A stretch of DNA of 43,771 bases, taken from positions 1 to 43,771 of IMG/VR virus record IMGVR_UViG_3300050132_000105. One strand, written 5' to 3'. This DNA comes from a virus. Positions 7,126 to 43,771 of the stretch are shown here, in pieces. The position numbers and the translations under genes are program-made. Position 1 is the stretch's first letter. The number at the start of each line of letters is the position of its first letter. The notes below the pieces were generated by a model that was not told the origin of the DNA, ran no database searches, and saw nothing but the letters and a program-made list of their open reading frames with translations.

Positions 7126-7306
7126 CGTAGTAGAAACATTTGTCCTTGTCGTCTTCTTTACACTGAGGTCCGCCATGTACGCCGACGATTTCAAAATGTC
7201 GCTGTACATGGCGGACCTTTTCGACCAGGCCGGCAAGGGCGCCCTCTACATTTTCCCCGGCGAAATATGCGATATTGTACCCTTCCTCGAACTCGATGTT
7301 TCTCAT
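7067..7306 (-). CDS. Hypothetical protein at 3' end of late module
   Basis: 79 residues, MRNIEFEEGYNIAYFAGENV..., with its ATG overlapping the ATP-grasp stop as ATGA (7306-7303) and TAGGAGG upstream, so it is translationally coupled to that gene. There are two cysteines (CKEDDKDKC) and a basic Pro-rich end. Its tail overlaps the convergent gene ending at 7125. No family recognised. Confidence 0.6.
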   Translation of the reverse strand: MRNIEFEEGYNIAYFAGENVEGALAGLVEKVRHVQRHFEIVGVHGGPQCKEDDKDKCFYYATQALTLRLRAPAPVKKPR

Positions 7307-8604: not shown

Positions 8605-11600
8605 CTACTCGCTCCTTAAAATGTCGGAATACCGTTCGCGCTCTTCCTGCTCCAAACCATGGGAGTTGCGGAACTTCTTGCGGAATGTCGGCTTTATCTG
8701 GTCTGTAACGCTCGACGGCGCATTCTCCATGATATTGGCGAGTTGGTCAAGCGGCATCTTCTCGACTTTCTTCATGTCGAGGGGGAGCTTTTGCCGGAGA
8801 AACGGGACATCTTGAGCAAACCCGCCCTTGCGAGGAACTGTGACTTCTCCACCAAACTTGTCCATTTTGTTAGCTATCTGGGGGAGCGACGAAGGTAATA
8901 TCAGCGACTCAAGGAGCCTGCGGGAATAGTAACTCATCCCCTCGTACGATTGGGCCGCCTGGTAGAGCCTCAGGGGAGAACTCACAAAGGGCACCTCCTC
9001 CGCAACTCCCATTGCCGCATCCTGGACACCTTCGGCAAAACCATGATCATTTCTTTCGTAAGGTTCACCTTTGCGTGCCGCTTTCTCTTCACGCTTGTCC
9101 TCGCGTCTCTTGTTTAAATCTTCTACGTGGTGAATCATTGAGCCAACTTGGATCACAGATAGCCCAGGAAAAGACAGAAGATTGGCTGGCGCATTCACGC
9201 CGAAGATTCGAGCTTCTCCCGGCTTCAGGTCATGGACTTTACGCTTTTCGCCTCTCTTATAAAAACCGCCGAACTCCTTGTAAAGGGCGTACCCGATGCC
9301 AAGGAGAAAGACACCTATGCCTGCCCTGTTGAGGTTTTTGGCAAAGTTCTCTTTCTCTTCCTCCGTCATCTCGTCGACGGCTTCCTGGTACGCCTGGCCA
9401 ATGGTGCGGCCAAAAATCTCTTTAGCCTTCGCGGTCTTGCCGGCCCTCATGGCCGCCGCTGCAAGCTGGGTGAGTGCCTTGACGGTCCCGACCGGGGGGA
9501 TGTAGGAAAAGGTTTCCCCGACAGCATTCAGAGGCACTTTCATGACAGGCTCTTGAGCTTCAATCAGGGACGCCGACAACATGCCGCCAAGCCCATGTTT
9601 TTTAAGCTGCCCTATGCCTGATCGCCAAATGTTGTTGACCACGTTATCGGCCATAAACTGAGCTTCGTTTGCGTCGGCTTCGGCTGCCGTGAAGATAAGA
9701 TGCCTAACTATTTCGTCATTCATATTCCAATCGTTTCGGATTGCCCATTCGGTTCTGTATTGGAGTGACTTATAGAACTCTTGGATGTACGCAATCGATT
9801 TCAGAGCACTATGCGCCCTGCCGGGAAAGTCCAGAACATACTCGGCGTGGTCAAGCGGTGTCACACCCCACGATGCCAACTCTATCCCGCCTTTTTTGTG
9901 TTTGGCGTATTTTATCTGAATACCATCTTTACCCTGTTTTAAACGGTCCCAAAAGTTGCGGTACATTTCACTTCTGAACAACTGGACGTATCCGGCTGCC
10001 TCCGCTTTTACATTCAGCCCCGAACCGTGCCGCGGTGCGCCCTCGTAAATCTTCCTGAGAGGGGGGAGTAACCTTATGGCAGAGGCCATCGCGTTGCCCG
10101 CAGTTGCAAAGCCTGGACGCCACACTGCGGCAGACGCACTTATTTTCCAGATCACACCAAGGGTAGAAAAGATAGCTCCGCGCTGGGCCTTCTTTTGGAA
10201 CTCCAGGTATTTCTCAAGTTTGCCCCGATTCTGTCTTTCAAGCCGGTACACCTCGGCATCGACTTGTTCCTTCAGTTTCGCAACTCGCTCCTTGAGCCTT
10301 TCGGACTCCGGGTCCATCTGGAGCACCCGCCGCGCCCGCTTCTCGAAGTTGCCAGTTGTCAACATTTCCTGAAGGTCGGCGGCACGCTTCATGGTCCTGG
10401 TCTTGTACGCTTTGAGCGCGGCTTCCATCGGGTCTTTGGTCGGGCGGGCGTCCTTCTGCATCTGCTTAAACTGCTCGGCCAGGGCATCACGGCGCGCGCG
10501 GAGCATCTTTAGAGCGGGTGTTTCTACCGCAGGGGCACCTTTGGGCCGGGGTTTCAGGTCGTACTGTGCGATTCTGCGCTCATAATCGCTGATCGACTTC
10601 TGTACCGCACTCTCGGCAGCCCTGACGCGCTGCTCGTCGGACATGCCCTTCTTGCCCTCGATCTCGTCGAGCGACTTCTTGAGCCGGTCACGAACAGCCT
10701 TCAGTGTGTTGGCCTCCTCGTCGTACTTCAGGCCGATTACCTTCTTACCCGCCTTCTTGCCGGTCTTCAGCTCTTCGGTGATGTCATGGATCTGGTTCTT
10801 GAGCCGGGTCTTGGCCGCGTCGAGCGCCGTCTTCCACTGCTGCTCCGGAGAGCGGGTCGACGTGGAGTCGATACCACTTTCCCGCATGGCCTCCTTGATC
10901 TCCTTTTGCAACTCGCGCACCTTCTCTGACACTGCGTCACGCTGCAGTCCGGAATGCGCGGGGATAACACCGTCTTCGGCGTCTTCAAGAGCGGAGATAA
11001 GCCGCATCTGACGGCGAGCCTCACGCAGGTTCACGTTGATCTCGTCCTGGGACATTTTGAACGACTCGCCGTACCCTGATATCGCGTCTCGGATGTCGCG
11101 GGGCTCCAGGTCAGGGATATCCTTCAAGTCCTCGTAGATGTCGGCAATTATCTCCTTGGCGTCGGTGATGCCGGCAATCACCCGGTTGCGCGCCATCTCT
11201 GCCAGTACCACGGCCATCTCGGGGTCGATGTTCATGGAAAGCTTGCCGGCCATCACCCTGAACTTGTCGGCAAGCGAATGGAACTCGGCATCCATACCGG
11301 AGCGGTCGGCCTTCTTCGCCGCGCGCCGGCGCTTCACTTCCGGTGGCGCCGCATCCTCTTCGTTGCGCATCTGCCGGACCCGGCGCTGTGCCTCCAGTTC
11401 GGCAATACGTTCTTCGTGCGCCTTGGACTGCGCAAGAGCCTCTTCGAGCTGCTTGGTAAGCGACTCGATCCGCGCTCGAATCTCCTCTGGGATTTCTCTC
11501 TTGCCAATGGCTGCCCGTACCCTGTTAGCGGTCCTGATGTAACTGTAATCTTCAGCCATGAGTAGCTGTCTCGCTCGTCCAGACGCGCTCCATTCGGTAC

Positions 11601-14600
11601 CTACACGCCGGGCTGCAACATCGTTGTCGTTAAAATTATCCTCAAGGGCCGCAAGACGCTGCCGGAGTTTGAGCGCCCTGTCAGAATCACCGGACTCCTG
11701 GGCTTCGATAAGCAATTCCATGACGGAGTTGCTGTCGTTGCGGATCTTAACCCGGTCGTGAAGAAGCGCAACCTGTTCGGCTGCTGAGATCGGCCGGGGC
11801 TTCTCGGCCAAAGCCTTCGCCTGTTCCCTAGGGTCATAACCGGGATCATTGACCAGTTTCATCCCCTCGGCGTAGGCAACCGGGTCAGTGTACTTCATGT
11901 GCTGCTCAACCGGGTCAAGACCGCGTTCTGCCCGTTCCTCTTCAGTTACCGCGTTTTTGGTGCTGGTGGTGCGCTGGTCTTCCTCCTGTAGTTCGCCGGC
12001 CACGGGTTCAGGTTCCACTGCTGCCGGTTCTGGCTGCGCTGAAGGTGCTGACATCTTCATAAACTGCTGCTCGATCTCGTCGGCGCGGGCTATCCACTCA
12101 TCGGCCGCCGACAAGTCGCGGGCTTCGACGGCCTTGTCGGCTTTGTCCAGGGCGTCAAGGTACCGCTCTCGCATAGCCTTCTTGATGTCCCGGCCAACGG
12201 CGCCGACTTCGTTCCCGACGATCCGCTTTACCCGTTCAAAGGTGGCTTCGACCATGCCTTTGAACTTCTGCCAGAGGTCGCCCAGTTTCTCGCGCATCGC
12301 CCGGGCGAAGTCCTGCCATTTGCGTGCTCCTTCCTCGTAGGCAGCGCGGCCTATGGCTTCCAGGTGCGGCATGGCTTCCCGGCCAGCCTTGGCGAGTTTG
12401 CGAAGGGATTCGTAGGCTTGTTGCAGGCCCATGAAGTCAAGGGTCTGCTGCCCGTTGTGCTTTGCAATAACCCGGTCCAGCACGCCTCCTGTTACGCTCT
12501 GGCGCATCGGCATAACGATTGCCACCACTTCGCCGTTTTCCACGGAAATAACCGATTCATCTGGGCCATTTATGCGGATTTCCGCTTTAGGAAAGTGCTG
12601 TTTTGCATAAACGTAGTATTTTTGGTCTACATCCGCCGTTTTCCCCTCGGCATCTTTGAGCCTCACATACCCGTTTTCATCCTTGCCGAGTTTTATCGGC
12701 TGGTCGGAACTGGCCTCGAACTTGCCGTTGTCGAGCTTCTTGTCACCCGCTCCAAATGCCGTGAAAATAGTTTTTGTGACGGGCTTGCCTCTGGTCGGTT
12801 TGGGGGTGACTCGGTTAATAGCGTCTTGGTTCTCCTCGGGAGTTCTTCCCGCAAAACGGTCTCCTTCTTTGCCCTTGAAAGGAACTTGCTCTTTACCCTT
12901 GACCATGACATGGCCGTTGCCGTGCCATAGGCCATTGGTGGCCGGCATCTGAAAACCACCTTCCAGACCTTCGGCCTTTACTGCACTCGGTTTCGGTGGG
13001 TTGCCGTATCCGGTTTTACCGCCCCTGGATTCAGCAGCAGGGAACAACTTGTCTACTTGAGCCTTGAACGCCTTGAGTGCGCCTTTGGTATTGTAGACCT
13101 CGAACGTGCCGTCATCAGGAACGTGGATTGTCACATAGGCGTCGGCATCGCGGAGCGCCTGCTGTGCGTCCTTAACGAGCGGTTGAATCCGGTCTTGGTC
13201 TGCCGTGGCAACATCAAGGGCTTTCTGAAAGGTGTCAACCTGCTCCTGCCGGTCTTCGGGGGAGTGGTCCTTAAATATCTCGGGGTTCTGCCAGAGTTCC
13301 AGTTTACTGGCTGCTTCGGCCTTGCGCATATTCGCTGCCGTGAGGCCGCCACGAAGCTCGTCTAGTTCGTTTCTCAGTGCAATCTGCTCACGACTGTTAT
13401 CGTCCGGAGCGGACTTCACCGCCTCCTCAATATTCGCCAACAGGTATTTCTTCTGCTCCTTCAGCGGGGTCCCTTCACCCTTGGCAGTCTTCACAGCCTC
13501 CTTCACCACCTCTGCCGCCGTGTCGGGAACGGCGGGTTCAGGCGTTACCCGGGCGGATTCGTAGGCGGAGCGGGCGGCTTCTGTGGTGGGTTCTACGGCC
13601 TCGACAGGCGCTTCCTCCGGCAAAGTGCCGGTGAGCACCTTATTGAGCCGACCGGGCATCTTGCGGATATACTCCAGCGCTTCGGTCATCTTGTTGTCAG
13701 CGGCATCCATTTTCTTACGGTTGCGGTCGGTGGGAAACCGGGCAGGGCCGACGATCATCGCACTCATGACGTTGCCGTGGGAAGACAGGTAAGCCCGGCT
13801 CATGTCGCCGTACTTTGCCGCCATGGTGTTAAATGTGTCGATGAAAGCGGCTTGTCGGTCCTCGTCGGCCTCGTTGTACCGCTTCTCGAACTGCTGCCAG
13901 ATGTCCGTGAGTTCCTGGCGGAAACCTTCCCTGAACGACTGGCCGCGCCTCTCGGGGGAATGCGACGTGCCGTTAAATGCTCTGTTGGCGAGGTCTGAGG
14001 GGATTGAGGGAATGGTAACGGGCGGGGCGCTCGGATTCTCCGCCTTCTCCAACCCCTTATCAATAGCTTCCTGCATCCCAACACTGAACGCGTCCTCTCG
14101 TTCCCGCTCCGCTTCCAGCACCTCCTGCTTCTTCCCCAACTCATCGGCCTTCTTCTCGATCACCTTCATCTGCCGGTCCAGTTCCCGCCGCGGCACCATC
14201 GCGCTGCGGCGGTCCTTCTCCCTCTTGGCCCGGAGGGTGTTCAGTTCGGTTTCCAGTGCGCGGATGTCGTCTTCGATTTCGGCAGCGAGTTGGGCGGTGG
14301 GGGCATCGTAGTTGTCGGCCGGTTCAGGTTCGGCGTCCATCTTACGGGCAGCATCCGCTATCTTCTCGTTCGCGGCTTTCCTCTTGACTTCCTGCTGCTT
14401 GCCTTGAAGGGTGTTGGGGTCTTTTGCACTGCGCGGGTCTGCCGGTATCGTCTTCGCGCCCTCGTTCTTCGCTTCCTGAACCACCACCGGCTGCTCGACG
14501 GGCGGCCCATCCCCGACTAGGCCGGTCGGGCGGCCTTTCGCCTCCGGTTTCGCTGCTTCCGTAGGTCGTTCCACTCCAGCGCTAGCGGGAGGAGTAGCGA

Positions 14601-17055
14601 CACCATCACCAGAAAGAGAAACGTTATCACCCACACCTCCATGTACTGGCTTTGATCCATCTTGCACCTCCTGTGCGGGTCTATACCCGTACAGGGCAGC
14701 TTTAGCCTTAGCTGCCATAGCTTTAGTCTTCGCGTAATCCTTGATGGTGTCGGGGTTTATATGCTTGCCTCTAAGCATCCGGCCTTCACCGTTTTCAGGG
14801 TTATATAGTCCACCCTCAGTGCCGCGCCCCTTCTCTTTTGGATTCTCCCGGTATTCGGTGTAGCCAGCATCGAACAACTCGTCAATTTTGGCGGCAAGGT
14901 TGGAATCACCAATCTTAACTGCCTCTGCGTCTTTCTTGGCGCGGCTGTGCGCTTTTGCCGACTTTGTGTGCGCGTCGATCAACCCTTCCTTCGCCGGGTC
15001 GAGTCCGCCCCAATCCATGAGCGCTTCCCACGTCTTGCCTTGCAGTTTCGGGAGTTTTACACCTGTTGCCGCCGTGAACGCCTGCTTACCCTTCTCGTTC
15101 AAACCATTGGCGAGATACTGAAGACGTCGGGCATCTTTATTCTGGACAGCATCGGCAAAGTCCCGGTGGAAGCCAGACAAGTCTTGTCCGAGGCTATCGG
15201 CATAATTTTTGGCGATCTTGTCTCTTTCTGAGCCGTCAGGCTCAATCTTACCGCCAGTGACCTTGCCCCACTTCGGGCCGTCCGATTCAAGGCTGAGAGG
15301 GGCGAATTTTGTGTCTTCCTGTTTTGCCACTTCATTCGTGGCCTTATTCAGATCCTGCGAATGCAGTTCCCCCCCGTCGATCTCCTCAAACTTCGCAAAC
15401 GTGGCAGGGTCGTTCTCCTTAAGCCACGTCTTGGCCTCGGCACGGGTCATAAACTCGCCGTCGCCCGCCACAAAACCGCGCTCGGCGTCCGCGGGAAGGT
15501 CCTCATTTGCCGCTAAGACCTCGGGGTGTGTGCTTCCGGCCTCTCCGACAACGGTGTCCTGGCCGGATCGTATGGCTGGCTTGAGAGATACTGCCGGTAC
15601 TTCGTCAAGTCCAGGTTCAGCGTCGACGGGCGGCTGCTCGACGGGCTCTGCTGCTGGAGCCTTCTTTGCTCTCGTTCTCTGTTTCTTATCAACCTTCTGC
15701 TCCTGTGCTACGGGTTCGGGTGTTGCTTCCGCTGCAGGTTCGTCCTCGATCAGCCACCGGCTGGCGGTGCGACGCTCGTTGATCTTGGCGGCGCGTTCAG
15801 TGAAGGGATCGGATTCAGGTGCCTGTACCTCAGATGCCGGCGCAGGTGTTCCTCCTGAGACATCTTCATCGGTTCCCCTTTTCGCCATATCTTCTTGCAC
15901 GCTGTCAGAAACCTGTCCGCCAGTTCCTTGTCGGTTGGCGCCTTCATTGTCCACCTCCTGTGCCATCTTGCGCCGGGAAGACATGACCGGTTTTGGCTTA
16001 ACTTCCTGCGCTGGCGGTTCGTACCCCTCAACCTGAATCCTCTTCTTGAGTGCCGCTTGGAACGTTTCAGGGTCCAGCCGAGCGATCTTCGCTTCCACCC
16101 GACCATCATCCCATCCTTGGCCCTTGAGCCCGGCCCGCACGTCGTCAAGGGACTGCACGACAAGACCGCGCTCCTTGTTGGTGAGCATTCGCCACCACTC
16201 GGAACTCCGGACGGCGGCGGGGATTTCAAGCGCCCCGGAAAGCAAGCCCGCGCCAGCGGCACCGACGACCACAGGGCTGTCCCATGGCTGATCACCAACG
16301 ATATCCTTGCCCTCATTCTGCGCCATCTCGCCGCCGACAATGCCGCCTGTCGCCGCCTGGGTTGCGATCCGGCCAACACGCCCGGCGTTCACTAGGCCGA
16401 AGGTGTTGCCGACAACGCTGGCGATTCCTTCCCACGGGGCCACTACCCCGGCGAACTCCCCGGCACCTTCAGCCAGCTTCGAGGGCGTGAGGCCAAGCGA
16501 CGGCATGGCCGCTGTCGCGCGGTCAACCTGATCACTCATAAGCCCGAGAGTCGCGCCCTTGGCAACGCCCATTGCCCCGCTGATTGATGCGCCTACCGGA
16601 TGTTCCAGAATGTTGGCGATAGGCTCAAGCTGCCGGCGGGCGGCGGGCGCTGAAGGGTCGCTGCCGAACCCCCGCGTTTCCATCCTGGCGCGTGCGCGGG
16701 AAAGAGCGCCCACTTGCGGCGAGGCCGGGCGGGGGAGCGCCGCTGCGGTCGCCAACAGGTCGCCGGTCTCCTGCTGCGGCTGTTGGCGCTGGATATCGGG
16801 GCGTCTGTACTGTAATGCCTGAAGTGCGTCCGGTTGCTGGTATGTCTGGAGAGGGCGCTCGATGCGGGGTGCCCGGGAGATGTCCTGCGCTCGCTGGATG
16901 CCCGGACGGTTCACGTCCTCGGCGCCGGGGATAGCGCGGGGAACAATGGATGACTTCGGTGCGGGGAGGGGTTCTTCTATGGTGTAGCGGCTGGAGGCTG
17001 CCGGCTTCGCTGCGGGTTGACTGTCGTCGTCTTCAATCACATAGCGGCCGGCCAT
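8605..17055 (-). CDS. Giant 2816-aa internal virion / ejection-type polyvalent protein
   Basis: The largest gene, 19 percent of the window. The N-terminus is low-complexity and Gln/Pro/Arg-rich, then a Gly/Ala-rich possibly membrane-active stretch (about 150-290). A polyvalent-protein-like segment contains GEFMTRAEAKTWLKEND, and long charged coiled-coil regions follow (about 930-1060 and 1900-2270). Hydrophobic segments lie near the C-terminus (for example IGVFLLGIGYALYKEFGG). Such huge, mosaic proteins at the end of podovirus structural modules are usually packaged and ejected with the DNA, forming a trans-envelope conduit or carrying enzymes. No RNA polymerase or lytic transglycosylase motif is evident by eye. 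AGGAGA precedes the ATG. Confidence 0.75.
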   Translation of the reverse strand: MAGRYVIEDDDSQPAAKPAASSRYTIEEPLPAPKSSIVPRAIPGAEDVNRPGIQRAQDISRAPRIERPLQTYQQPDALQALQYRRPDIQRQQPQQETGDLLATAAALPRPASPQVGALSRARARMETRGFGSDPSAPAARRQLEPIANILEHPVGASISGAMGVAKGATLGLMSDQVDRATAAMPSLGLTPSKLAEGAGEFAGVVAPWEGIASVVGNTFGLVNAGRVGRIATQAATGGIVGGEMAQNEGKDIVGDQPWDSPVVVGAAGAGLLSGALEIPAAVRSSEWWRMLTNKERGLVVQSLDDVRAGLKGQGWDDGRVEAKIARLDPETFQAALKKRIQVEGYEPPAQEVKPKPVMSSRRKMAQEVDNEGANRQGTGGQVSDSVQEDMAKRGTDEDVSGGTPAPASEVQAPESDPFTERAAKINERRTASRWLIEDEPAAEATPEPVAQEQKVDKKQRTRAKKAPAAEPVEQPPVDAEPGLDEVPAVSLKPAIRSGQDTVVGEAGSTHPEVLAANEDLPADAERGFVAGDGEFMTRAEAKTWLKENDPATFAKFEEIDGGELHSQDLNKATNEVAKQEDTKFAPLSLESDGPKWGKVTGGKIEPDGSERDKIAKNYADSLGQDLSGFHRDFADAVQNKDARRLQYLANGLNEKGKQAFTAATGVKLPKLQGKTWEALMDWGGLDPAKEGLIDAHTKSAKAHSRAKKDAEAVKIGDSNLAAKIDELFDAGYTEYRENPKEKGRGTEGGLYNPENGEGRMLRGKHINPDTIKDYAKTKAMAAKAKAALYGYRPAQEVQDGSKPVHGGVGDNVSLSGDGVATPPASAGVERPTEAAKPEAKGRPTGLVGDGPPVEQPVVVQEAKNEGAKTIPADPRSAKDPNTLQGKQQEVKRKAANEKIADAARKMDAEPEPADNYDAPTAQLAAEIEDDIRALETELNTLRAKREKDRRSAMVPRRELDRQMKVIEKKADELGKKQEVLEAEREREDAFSVGMQEAIDKGLEKAENPSAPPVTIPSIPSDLANRAFNGTSHSPERRGQSFREGFRQELTDIWQQFEKRYNEADEDRQAAFIDTFNTMAAKYGDMSRAYLSSHGNVMSAMIVGPARFPTDRNRKKMDAADNKMTEALEYIRKMPGRLNKVLTGTLPEEAPVEAVEPTTEAARSAYESARVTPEPAVPDTAAEVVKEAVKTAKGEGTPLKEQKKYLLANIEEAVKSAPDDNSREQIALRNELDELRGGLTAANMRKAEAASKLELWQNPEIFKDHSPEDRQEQVDTFQKALDVATADQDRIQPLVKDAQQALRDADAYVTIHVPDDGTFEVYNTKGALKAFKAQVDKLFPAAESRGGKTGYGNPPKPSAVKAEGLEGGFQMPATNGLWHGNGHVMVKGKEQVPFKGKEGDRFAGRTPEENQDAINRVTPKPTRGKPVTKTIFTAFGAGDKKLDNGKFEASSDQPIKLGKDENGYVRLKDAEGKTADVDQKYYVYAKQHFPKAEIRINGPDESVISVENGEVVAIVMPMRQSVTGGVLDRVIAKHNGQQTLDFMGLQQAYESLRKLAKAGREAMPHLEAIGRAAYEEGARKWQDFARAMREKLGDLWQKFKGMVEATFERVKRIVGNEVGAVGRDIKKAMRERYLDALDKADKAVEARDLSAADEWIARADEIEQQFMKMSAPSAQPEPAAVEPEPVAGELQEEDQRTTSTKNAVTEEERAERGLDPVEQHMKYTDPVAYAEGMKLVNDPGYDPREQAKALAEKPRPISAAEQVALLHDRVKIRNDSNSVMELLIEAQESGDSDRALKLRQRLAALEDNFNDNDVAARRVGTEWSASGRARQLLMAEDYSYIRTANRVRAAIGKREIPEEIRARIESLTKQLEEALAQSKAHEERIAELEAQRRVRQMRNEEDAAPPEVKRRRAAKKADRSGMDAEFHSLADKFRVMAGKLSMNIDPEMAVVLAEMARNRVIAGITDAKEIIADIYEDLKDIPDLEPRDIRDAISGYGESFKMSQDEINVNLREARRQMRLISALEDAEDGVIPAHSGLQRDAVSEKVRELQKEIKEAMRESGIDSTSTRSPEQQWKTALDAAKTRLKNQIHDITEELKTGKKAGKKVIGLKYDEEANTLKAVRDRLKKSLDEIEGKKGMSDEQRVRAAESAVQKSISDYERRIAQYDLKPRPKGAPAVETPALKMLRARRDALAEQFKQMQKDARPTKDPMEAALKAYKTRTMKRAADLQEMLTTGNFEKRARRVLQMDPESERLKERVAKLKEQVDAEVYRLERQNRGKLEKYLEFQKKAQRGAIFSTLGVIWKISASAAVWRPGFATAGNAMASAIRLLPPLRKIYEGAPRHGSGLNVKAEAAGYVQLFRSEMYRNFWDRLKQGKDGIQIKYAKHKKGGIELASWGVTPLDHAEYVLDFPGRAHSALKSIAYIQEFYKSLQYRTEWAIRNDWNMNDEIVRHLIFTAAEADANEAQFMADNVVNNIWRSGIGQLKKHGLGGMLSASLIEAQEPVMKVPLNAVGETFSYIPPVGTVKALTQLAAAAMRAGKTAKAKEIFGRTIGQAYQEAVDEMTEEEKENFAKNLNRAGIGVFLLGIGYALYKEFGGFYKRGEKRKVHDLKPGEARIFGVNAPANLLSFPGLSVIQVGSMIHHVEDLNKRREDKREEKAARKGEPYERNDHGFAEGVQDAAMGVAEEVPFVSSPLRLYQAAQSYEGMSYYSRRLLESLILPSSLPQIANKMDKFGGEVTVPRKGGFAQDVPFLRQKLPLDMKKVEKMPLDQLANIMENAPSSVTDQIKPTFRKKFRNSHGLEQEERERYSDILRSE

Positions 17056-40826: not shown

Positions 40827-41291
40827 GGGGAATCGCGGGCGCTGCAGGTAGCTGAGAATTATTATGTGACGCTAAGTGTCCAGGATCGGACCACCTGTTA
40901 CAAATGATTTCAACCACTTAGGGTGGAAAATATCAGCATGTCACAAAATGTTTACGCTCTAAACTATTGAAATTACTTGATTTTTACCCCCTTACACTAC
41001 TACTACATAACTAGAAATAGAAATAATAATAATAAGGGGGATTTTTATTTATTTCTGCCTGTATATGTGGTCATGATTATAGATGCAATGGTGGAATAAA
41101 AAATATAAGTTCTAGTATCTTCGAACCCCGGATACGCGTCACATCGTCACATTTTGGACCAAAAGAACCCAAGTACCCGATATATCAAGTAACCATGGAA
41201 CTTGAGTTAAGTCACACTAATCATAAAAAGGTAGCTTTCCCATGTAGATGGTGATATAGGTTGGTTCACTTTTGATAAAAGGAGGTATCGC
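40827..41291 (+). promoter_or_regulatory. AT-rich divergent control region, origin or operator candidate
   Basis: About 465 bp without a convincing gene between the divergent late and right-end modules. It is much more AT-rich than the rest of the window, with an AATAATAATAATAA run near 41026-41035 flanked by CCCCCTTA (40987-40994) and TAAGGGGG (41033-41040). GTCACA or its complement occurs five times (40865, 40940, 41138, 41146, 41211), two of them in a tandem 8-mer CGTCACAT (41137-41152). These suggest bound regulators and possibly a replication origin. Confidence 0.5.
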
Positions 41292-41933
41292 ATGGGAATA
41301 AAAAACTGTACTCGCTGTAGTCATGAATGGCTCCCCCGGCTGATAGACCGGGAACCTGCTAGGTGCCCTAGATGCAACTCGCCATATTGGAACCGTCCGA
41401 GAAGGATAGTGGAATGCTTACCACCCATCGAGCGGATCGACAGGAAAAGTCTTTTCAACTCCATCATGGCAGAGAAAGGCATCACCGTTGAGCAGGCTGC
41501 TATAATGCTTGGAAAATCCGTCACCACCATTTACAACTATACAAAAGCTACAGGGTTTAATGTGCCATTAGAAGCGATAGAAAAAATGAGCAGTATCGAC
41601 ATTTCGCCCAATTCCTCGCGTCAATTTAAGTGTGCTATTCGGGGATGCTCCCATGAATGGACTGCCCGAACGGACGTCCCCCCTGTGGCGTGCCCTAAAT
41701 GCCACAATAAACACTGGCTTTCCGGCCTATCTCCGATAGAGGCAAAAGGGGCTCTCAAGCGCATGGTGAATACCGTTCCCGGATCTCTTGCTGATTTTGC
41801 TCGGGCTGTAGATGTCCCCGCCGAAAAACTGTTGCCTTATATGCAAGGTAAAGCTATGAGCCGCGCACAGTTAGATCAACTTTGTTCGAGATTGCGAAGT
41901 AAGGGATTTACGCTATTCAGGTATCTTGACTGA
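41292..41933 (+). CDS. Duplicated zinc-ribbon plus HTH-like protein, putative regulator
   Basis: 213 residues built as two similar halves. Half 1 has a zinc ribbon (C6, C9, C25, C28; CTRCSHEW...CPRCNSPYW) then a helix-turn-helix-like segment (GITVEQAAIMLGKSVTTIYN). Half 2 repeats it (C114, C119, C134, C137; GCSHEW...CPKCHNKHW) then SLADFARAVDVPAEKLLPYM. Such ribbons in phages usually accompany DNA-binding proteins, so an early regulator is a fair guess. GGAGGT precedes the ATG, and it is the first gene after the control region. Confidence 0.7.
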   Translation: MGIKNCTRCSHEWLPRLIDREPARCPRCNSPYWNRPRRIVECLPPIERIDRKSLFNSIMAEKGITVEQAAIMLGKSVTTIYNYTKATGFNVPLEAIEKMSSIDISPNSSRQFKCAIRGCSHEWTARTDVPPVACPKCHNKHWLSGLSPIEAKGALKRMVNTVPGSLADFARAVDVPAEKLLPYMQGKAMSRAQLDQLCSRLRSKGFTLFRYLD

Positions 41934-41945
41934 AAAGGAGCCACT

Positions 41946-42311
41946 ATGAAAGCTGAACAAAAATACTATTTGCTATCGCCGCAGAAACAGAAGGGGCCTC
42001 AGCGAAAATACCTTGGTAGCGGAGGCCAATACTACGACGATCCCAACAAGGGCCGTCTGGTCACCAGGTCTGAAGCGGGGAGGGTGGCAACTCTCTGGCA
42101 TGAGCCCTTATATACAGTGAACACGGATCGCACCAAAAAGCCGCCAACCCAGGCGCTTCCCGAAAAACATGACCCAAGAGGAAACTACAATATCAGCTTG
42201 CCTGCCTCGTATACCGATATCGTCAACCGCCTGGTGCGAAAGTTTGGTGCTTCCAAGGAGGACGTATTGAGACAGGCGCTTGAACTGTTGGAAGGGTCGA
42301 TTGCTTTTTAA
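41946..42311 (+). CDS. Ribbon-helix-helix protein with basic N-terminal extension
   Basis: 121 residues. The last 43 (NYNISLPASYTDIVNRLVRK..., EDVLRQALELL) form an RHH (MetJ/Arc/CopG) domain: one beta strand for DNA contact and two helices for dimerisation. The N-terminal 75 residues are polar and aromatic (YYLLSPQKQKGPQRKYLGSG). The RHH part resembles that of the gene at 42393, and both genes share the leader AAAAGGAGCCAC, so they are likely duplicates. Likely a DNA-binding regulator. Confidence 0.7.
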   Translation: MKAEQKYYLLSPQKQKGPQRKYLGSGGQYYDDPNKGRLVTRSEAGRVATLWHEPLYTVNTDRTKKPPTQALPEKHDPRGNYNISLPASYTDIVNRLVRKFGASKEDVLRQALELLEGSIAF

Positions 42312-42332: not shown

Positions 42333-42360
42333 TTGACAATGCATATTTTTTGACTATAAT
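42333..42360 (+). promoter_or_regulatory. Near-consensus sigma70 promoter
   Basis: TTGACA (42333-42338), 16-nt spacer, TATAAT (42355-42360): both hexamers are perfect matches. It lies 32 nt before the ATG of the RHH/primase-domain gene and would give it strong host-dependent early or constitutive expression. A nearby ATGCAT palindrome in the spacer might serve as an operator. Confidence 0.8.
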
Positions 42361-42392: not shown

Positions 42393-42851
42393 ATGTCAAC
42401 TCGAAATATCAGCCTGCCGGATCATCACGAAAAATTACTGCAAGAGTTCAAACAGAAATTCGGGATTTCGGCATCAGAAGCAATTCGGAGGGGTTTGGAG
42501 GCGCTTGCTTCAAGTTATCCCGACGCCTCCAGGAATACTGGAGGCGTCGGGATAACTTTGCACCAGGAAAATCCGTTCATCTGTGCAGGTTACTCGGGCG
42601 ACACTTACTACTATATTGTGAAGCGCACTCTTAAGATCATCGCGTTAGATCCAGACGACCACGATAAAGAGCATCTTCTCACCTTAGCACCTATAAGCTA
42701 CTGGGAAACCTGTTTCCCTTGCAGAGCTGGAGTCCACTGGGATAGCGCAATCAGCGCCCTTTTCAGGAAGCAGGAAATGGCCGGTATTTTTAACCCTAAT
42801 GGTGCTGATGCGACGGTGGAAGACTTGAAGAAAGGCCTACATTTCCCTTGA
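42393..42851 (+). CDS. RHH protein fused to a paralog of the primase-helicase linker domain
   Basis: 152 residues. Residues 1-40 form an RHH DNA-binding domain (STRNISLPDHHEKLLQEFKQ, then SEAIRRGLEAL). Residues 62-135 align without gaps to residues 361-434 of the phage primase-helicase (gene at 3530), with 33 identities in 74 by hand count, including GY..xTYYY, LxTLAPIxYWE and the P..xGxxxD block. It lacks the primase RGRGAW segment, Toprim and AAA parts. A perfect 21-bp inverted repeat encodes the junction. AAAGGAG precedes the ATG and a strong promoter lies upstream. A regulator that engages the replication machinery is an attractive idea but unproven. Confidence 0.8.
   Translation: MSTRNISLPDHHEKLLQEFKQKFGISASEAIRRGLEALASSYPDASRNTGGVGITLHQENPFICAGYSGDTYYYIVKRTLKIIALDPDDHDKEHLLTLAPISYWETCFPCRAGVHWDSAISALFRKQEMAGIFNPNGADATVEDLKKGLHFP
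42512..42558 (+). repeat. Perfect 21-bp inverted repeat inside a coding sequence
   Basis: Arms 42512-42532 and 42538-42558 are exact reverse complements around a 5-nt loop (GAATA). The core arm is CCCGACGCCTCCAG. It encodes the linker SYPDASRNTGGVGIT between the RHH and primase-like domains. No T-tract follows. It could be a mobile-palindrome scar, an operator for the RHH dimer, or an mRNA hairpin that limits full-length product. Confidence 0.9.
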
Positions 42852-42876: not shown

Positions 42877-42943
42877 CAGACTATGAAGAAGAGGGAGCCG
42901 ACCCATCGCGAGCCGGCGCGTAATCCGGCAAGGAGGCATCACC

Positions 42944-43177
42944 ATGGCACTCACCCAGATCGCAAGAAAAGACGGCAACGGCACAATGCACCGCGCCCAC
43001 GTCCGGTCGGTAACGCTCGGGAAGGTCGAAGCCGCCGAAGCAGCCGGCGCGGAAATCATCATCAATACAAACTGGCAGTTCAAGGGCAAACAATTCACCC
43101 GTGTCGAAAAATTGAGCCAGACGAATTCCCGGTTCGGTGGGAAACCGAAACATATCATCTGGGCCTGCTACCGCTGA
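42944..43177 (+). CDS. Hypothetical protein
   Basis: 77 residues, MALTQIARKDGNGTMHRAHV..., with AAGGAGG before the ATG. Basic N-terminal half, a central helix-strand region (KVEAAEAAGAEIIINTNWQF) and a polar C-terminus ending HIIWACYR. No family recognised. It starts a short plus-strand group reaching the window end. Confidence 0.65.
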   Translation: MALTQIARKDGNGTMHRAHVRSVTLGKVEAAEAAGAEIIINTNWQFKGKQFTRVEKLSQTNSRFGGKPKHIIWACYR

Positions 43178-43230
43178 CACATTCAGTTCACCCGGCGCAC
43201 TGCGCCATAACCCATCCCATGGAGGGAACA

Positions 43231-43635
43231 ATGATCGACATCGAAAACATGACCGTCAAGCAAGTCCGCGAACTGGCCTCGCAACTGGCCCCGTTCGTCA
43301 CCCCGAACCAGAGCCCCACCGTAGATGCACCCGCGCCTCATCGCTACATCGGCAAATACGTGGTAGTCCGTACCTACTCCGCAGGCGTCCACGTCGGAAC
43401 GCTCTACAGCGTCGCCGACTCTTTGAGCGGGAAGGAAGCAATTCTCACCGGCTGCCGGAGAATCTATTCGTGGGGTGGGGCATTCACGCTGTCTGCTGTG
43501 GCGGATTCCGGTATCAAGTCCGGTAAAATGGAGGTATCCCTGCCCGAAATGGCTATTGAAAACGTCATTGAGATTATCCCTTGCACTGACGAGGCGCGAC
43601 TCAATCTTGTTGGGTTCCCGGTACACCAGCCGTGA
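43231..43635 (+). CDS. Small phage protein, DUF6948-like
   Basis: 134 residues from ATG 43231 (GGAGGG upstream). [20 protein letters not shown], a linker, then [20 protein letters not shown] and [20 protein letters not shown], which match my memory of the DUF6948-type beta domain common in phages, of unknown function. The frame stays open far upstream (from 42883), but that part lacks a ribosome site and overlaps the 42944 gene. Its stop overlaps the next GTG. Confidence 0.65.
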
Positions 43636-43771
43636 AAGGCGAGACGGTTTTGGATAAAAGGGACGGCTCCGGCTCCGGCGACGGCTCCGGCTCCGGCGAC
43701 GGCTCCGGCTCCGGCGACGGCTCCGGCTCCGGCTCCGGCTCCGGCGACGGCTCCGGCTCCGGCGACGGCTC
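43632..43771 (+). CDS. Gly-Ser-Asp repeat protein, 3'-truncated by window edge
   Basis: GTG at 43632 overlaps the preceding stop (GTGA). The product starts [11 protein letters not shown] and continues as GSGSGD hexapeptide repeats to the end of the window. The last codon is split by the edge; joined to base 1 it would read TCG (Ser) and continue in frame into the leucine-rich-repeat-like protein at 2-703. The flexible acidic/Gly-Ser repeat could be a linker or Ca-binding-like tract. Start codon confidence is moderate. Confidence 0.55.
43665..43771 (+). repeat. 18-bp tandem repeat encoding GSGSGD
   Basis: Units of GGCTCCGGCTCCGGCGAC repeat about six times, with one unit expanded by two extra GGCTCC steps. 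Runs to the window edge, so the full length is unknown. Simple repeats like this change length by slippage in multiples of 6 bp, keeping the frame. Confidence 0.95.

Follow-up and report, generated by a model that had tools for sequence, protein, structure and literature searches.

The window analyzed here, i.e., the whole 43,771 nt stretch of the IMG/VR virus record IMGVR_UViG_3300050132_000105, carries a small gene (P0001) at position 42,393–42,851 of the plus strand. The gene starts with ATG behind a good Shine-Dalgarno sequence (AAAGGAGCCACAAAATG) and encodes a 152 aa protein, in which an N-terminal RHH domain (residues 1–39; 42,393–42,509, plus strand) is fused to a subdomain of the primase-helicase type (residues 57–136; 42,561–42,800, plus strand) with three strands and three helices. 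The subdomain ends before the RGRGAW segment that is invariant in the family. Where this segment would be, P0001 has a divergent C-terminal tail, GADATVEDLKKGLHFP (42,801–42,851, plus strand), which reads GADATV at the aligned position and is unrelated, and the most conserved motif of the family is gone. AlphaFold2 models the end of the tail poorly (pLDDT 30–45). The Walker-type ATPase of the helicase module is also absent, the protein ending just after the first subdomain, and Pfam gave neither a Toprim match nor a DUF927 match (E < 1) in P0001. A previous sequence-only reading of this locus had described the ATPase, Toprim and RGRGAW parts as missing, and both Pfam and the alignment agree with it.

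The RHH front was recognized through the adjacent gene. That gene (41,946–42,311, plus strand) encodes a 121 aa protein with a C-terminal RHH domain, which passes the cut-off of Pfam RHH_1 and aligns with residues 5–38 of P0001 (13/34 identical, E-value = 3e-7, 0/1,000 shuffles); P0001 itself has no significant RHH match in Pfam. In the AlphaFold2 model, a NISLP ribbon is followed by predicted helices at residues 10–23 and 27–41, and the homology and the two modeled helices together bear out the earlier view that an RHH domain is fused in front. The NISLP residues are identical in the two proteins. By analogy with Arc, the N and S of the ribbon would presumably face the DNA, so P0001 and its neighbor may recognize similar sites. 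Further upstream, a gene of 213 aa (41,292–41,933, plus strand) combines a zinc-ribbon, an HTH and a second zinc-ribbon. Its HTH_26 match lies at the cut-off (E-value = 2e-4) and its zinc-ribbon-like Pfam matches fall just below theirs, and its product is a probable regulator within the same cassette. The cassette comprises three genes of the DNA-binding type beside an AT-rich region. No homologs of the 213 aa protein were detected in phages and no relatives of the 121 aa protein in viral contigs. Downstream of P0001, the 250 aa ORF at 42,883–43,635 is probably two genes, one at 42,944–43,177 (77 aa, with a good SD) and a DUF6948 gene from about 43,231.

A perfect sigma-70 promoter-like site, TTGACA-N16-TATAAT, is located at 42,333–42,360 (plus strand), 32 bp upstream of the ATG of P0001. 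It is the sole exact match in the 43.8 kb window and none occurred in 100 shuffles, a match to the promoter pattern rather than a proof of use. No inverted-repeat operator was identified at this promoter. The AT-rich intergenic region (40,827–41,291, 38% GC) contains five GTCACA sites, at 40,865 on the minus strand and at 40,940, 41,138, 41,146 and 41,211 on the plus strand, out of 15 in the whole window. The motif was spotted by eye, but the shuffle test took in all hexamers with at least three G/C; none of them reached five copies in 1,000 shuffles of the region. We regard the cluster as a candidate array of operator or origin sites.

The second half of P0001 has its counterpart in the primase-helicase of the same virus (P0002; 3,530–6,211, plus strand), an 893 aa protein with a Toprim and a helicase module. 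BLASTP aligned residues 57–136 of P0001 with residues 356–435 of P0002 (4,595–4,834, plus strand) with 34/80 identities and without gaps (E-value = 3e-24). The alignment scored 209, while the maximum of the shuffles was 56 and 0/1,000 reached 209. The gap-free pairing of residues 62–135 with 361–434 that had been counted by hand was reproduced with exactly 33 of 74 positions identical. A search of the window's own record found the domain in these two places only, the second one at E-value = 2.9e-23, and a domain HMM built here matched only P0001 (E-value = 2.4e-34) and P0002 within the window. Additionally, the PHROG family phrog_35358 (DNA primase) matches residues 60–134 of P0001 (E-value = 1e-10). 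In the Toprim primase-helicases of this family, such as those of Synechococcus phage S-H1, Bordetella phage PY223 and Pararheinheimera phage KLER1-1, the first helicase subdomain is homologous to residues 57–136 and 28–43% identical; in contrast to them, P0001 is without primase, ATPase and RGRGAW and has an RHH domain instead.

As for the nature of the shared piece, the sequence-only reading had called it a linker domain, a description that does not hold. In the relatives, homology runs unbroken from the subdomain through to the C-terminus, and in a 616 aa plasmid protein the subdomain lies almost at the start (residues 44–127) without a Toprim ahead, which places it at the head of the C-terminal helicase module, as its first subdomain. 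Toprim matches are present in P0002 (Pfam), whereas DUF927, under which the primase had also been placed, has no Pfam match there at E < 1. AlphaFold2, supplied with 23 helper sequences, modeled residues 61–136 of P0001 at pLDDT 92–97 as strand-strand-strand-helix-helix-helix, and these elements recur in unchanged order in the P0002 helicase module as modeled. The two proteins share their predicted structure, but the models do not count as evidence apart from the sequences, since both model alignments include the homologous sequences. The modeled subdomain of P0001 had no significant fold match in the PDB, and a comparison with the viral structures of BFVD gave significant matches only to proteins of 696 and 838 aa. 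The whole P0002 module resembles the helicases of NrS-1, SaPI PriRep1 and the D5 type (Foldseek), with 6lrb, 7pds, 8hwa and 7ola as top PDB matches at low TM-scores (0.2–0.35 on the query).

The domain was followed through 109 other phage, plasmid and viral records (50 + 42 + 17), 39 of which are at least 30 kb by their printed length and the rest fragments. Each record has one copy, and the open frame around it is never shorter than 439 aa; since the records were gathered via the helicase, a phage whose sole copy is diverged and stand-alone might have escaped. One copy per record, always within a large frame of the primase-helicase type, means that the domain is not generic. A module found in many unrelated RHH proteins, the explanation that would have refuted the sequence-only reading, was rejected, the domain being confined to large helicases in everything searched. 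The fusion itself has no relative in viral contigs queried with P0001 and no match covering 80% of P0001 among GenBank phages and plasmids. In bacterial and archaeal genomes, two scans with narrow patterns likewise yielded no confirmed relative; one A5 row in these patterns had one residue altered for sharpness (LAPKDYWE to LAPLDYWE). The co-occurrence of the fusion with the primase in related phages, anticipated from the sequence alone, was thus not found, and neither was a close relative of the phage in the collections searched, where primase and terminase queries retrieved none closer than 58% identity. The combination of RHH and helicase subdomain looks rare, a single example.

As to the origin of the captured domain, an initial tree built on a narrow sample grouped P0001 with P0002 (support 97/72). 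With wider sampling they were not sisters: P0001 was placed next to the S-H1-like clade and P0002 next to L103, each of them with weak support. A tree forced to group the two is 2 log units worse (p-AU = 0.345), and the test rejects neither arrangement. P0001 has a GC content of 48% against 62% for P0002, and the neighboring early genes are low too. Identity of the domain pair amounts to 67.5, 52.5, and 37.5% at the second, first and third codon positions, respectively, the third positions looking saturated. A recent duplication from the phage's own primase is not supported, with composition and codon positions arguing against it, and the earlier statement that the protein was made from its own primase domain does not stand as worded, the tree neither backing nor rejecting it. 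Taken together, the weak placement, the GC gap and the 37.5% third-position identity indicate that the domain is either an old paralog or a copy from another phage.

A derivation from another lineage would also suit an inhibitor of competing phages, in which the truncated subdomain, tethered or dimerized by the RHH domain, would poison the primase-helicases that related phages carry (superinfection exclusion by a moron-type gene). The consensus promoter of its own and a GC content below most of the genome are features of P0001 that recall moron genes. Nevertheless, a DNA-binding domain would be superfluous for an inhibitor, none of the PADLOC defence models match P0001 at E < 0.1, and no integrase or lysogeny gene was recognized in the annotated parts, so that a long-lived prophage state is not supported. 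We consider this explanation unlikely.

Within the P0001 ORF, a perfect inverted repeat of 21 bp with a 5 nt loop (42,512–42,558, −44.5 kcal/mol) spans codons 40–56, which encode precisely the linker that joins the two halves of the protein. The longest perfect stem in shuffles was 10 bp. The hairpin was rejected as an intrinsic terminator (it has no T-run and was not called) and as a known RNA element, Rfam matches being at chance level only. It is not a dispersed repeat either, as no copy occurs in the rest of the window, the viral contigs, the fetched loci, the phages or the plasmids. One might see in it a mark of the fusion junction, an element acting on the mRNA (attenuation, RNase III) or the remains of a terminator. 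Another long inverted repeat (26 nt, 85%) lies at 7,166–7,218, just upstream of the point where the minus-strand gene block ends and near the convergent junction.

Such a perfect hairpin at the junction invites the thought that P0001 is a chance recent fusion or a decaying fragment without function, a piece of a primase gene that was attached to the end of an RHH gene at a hairpin, which may once have been a terminator. Its singleton status, the lost RGRGAW and the disordered C-terminal tail would fit this as well. However, the ORF is intact and preceded by an SD and a perfect promoter, the cut in the domain falls on a structural boundary, and the residues of the fold core are kept despite the saturated third positions. 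Of the 24 strongly conserved positions of the family, 18 are kept in P0001, up to residue 136, and the differences from P0002 are fewest at second and most frequent at third codon positions, as expected for a translated, constrained sequence. These two observations argue against decay, short of excluding it, and a fusion without function seems to us decidedly unlikely.

Proteins of the RHH class (Arc/MetJ/CopG-type), including the two-domain NikR, resemble P0001 in having an RHH-type N-terminus and a folded C-terminal domain. The C-terminal domain of P0001 is a helicase subdomain, in contrast to the known sensor domains. RHH proteins with C-terminal modules are already known; a helicase subdomain in this role is undescribed in the open-access literature searched, at the level of titles and abstracts. 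Since RHH plus a C-terminal module is a common architecture, P0001 might be an ordinary autorepressor whose C-terminal domain serves oligomerization or the sensing of a small ligand, as in NikR, with any tie to the primase-helicase gone. The loss of RGRGAW, the most conserved segment, is compatible with this, and so is the fact that the domain is as close to the helicases of other phages as to P0002 (44% identity with L012, 43% with P0002). On the other hand, the module stems from a replication helicase family and not from a known sensor family, and it has no PDB fold match; an autorepressor of this kind is, in our opinion, somewhat doubtful.

With respect to replication systems, the P0002 module belongs to the same general fold class as the self-loading helicases of mobile genetic elements, i.e., SaPI Rep/PriRep1, SCCmec Cch/Cch2, the NrS-1 C-terminal region and the D5 type. 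Those are complete helicases, while P0001 is an accessory subdomain only. A small protein that limits the replication of its own element is Cnr of satellite P4, which acts through the alpha primase-helicase. No homology is expected between it and P0001, and Cnr has been described neither as a fragment of alpha nor as an RHH fusion. The cnr gene of P4 controls plasmid copy number (PMC8628076), and the SCCmec and SaPI helicases have been described as well (PMC7581432).

We favor, at a probability of roughly 40%, the reading that P0001 acts early as an RHH regulator or adaptor and contacts the primase-helicase or its partner through the captured subdomain. The decoy or recruiter proposed in the sequence-only reading stays a hypothetical mechanism. 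P0001 would be transcribed from its own, predictedly strong sigma-70 promoter, and the RHH dimer would bind within the early control region, with its own promoter, the AT-rich intergenic region or both as the likeliest targets. The helicase subdomain would be reused as a protein-contact or oligomerization module, touching either the primase-helicase or whatever that subdomain touches within the helicase. Replication could in this way feed back on early transcription, or the placement of the helicase on DNA could be either assisted or impeded. This reading draws on the homology of the RHH domain with that of the neighbor, including the identical NISLP residues, on the conserved positions that were kept in a confidently modeled fold sharing the elements of P0002, and on the codon-position differences. 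It draws equally on the perfect promoter with SD, on the three-gene DNA-binding cassette adjoining the AT-rich region with its GTCACA cluster, and on the specificity of the domain for this helicase family in everything searched. Counted against it are the missing relatives of the fusion, a tree that leaves origin in the own primase neither supported nor rejected, and the lack of an inverted-repeat operator at the promoter.

A more specific version of the regulator or adaptor reading, which we regard as doubtful, takes the split-off contact subdomain and the RHH domain as an adaptor in trans, tethering or timing the primase-helicase at the GTCACA-rich, AT-rich region or at the promoter of P0001. 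If true, it would be a link from replication to transcription of an undescribed kind. Should P0001 contact the primase-helicase at all, the phage would have built a regulator of replication from a piece of a replication enzyme, and the first subdomain, otherwise unstudied, of a helicase module that is widespread in phages would be a portable contact surface. The two-gene setting and the size of the 152 aa protein make P0001 directly testable.

Elsewhere in the window, a single ORF of 2,816 aa occupies 8,605–17,055 on the minus strand, which is very large for a phage of such size. Near-identical tandem repeats of the GCCCTCACCTCGGTTGGTGGCTCC type fill positions 1–200 at the contig start and encode an LRR-like ALTSVGGYLDVSADFQAP repeat. 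At the other end, an 18 bp tandem repeat (43,662–43,771) encodes a sequence of the DGSGSG type up to the contig end, and the contig probably breaks within it.
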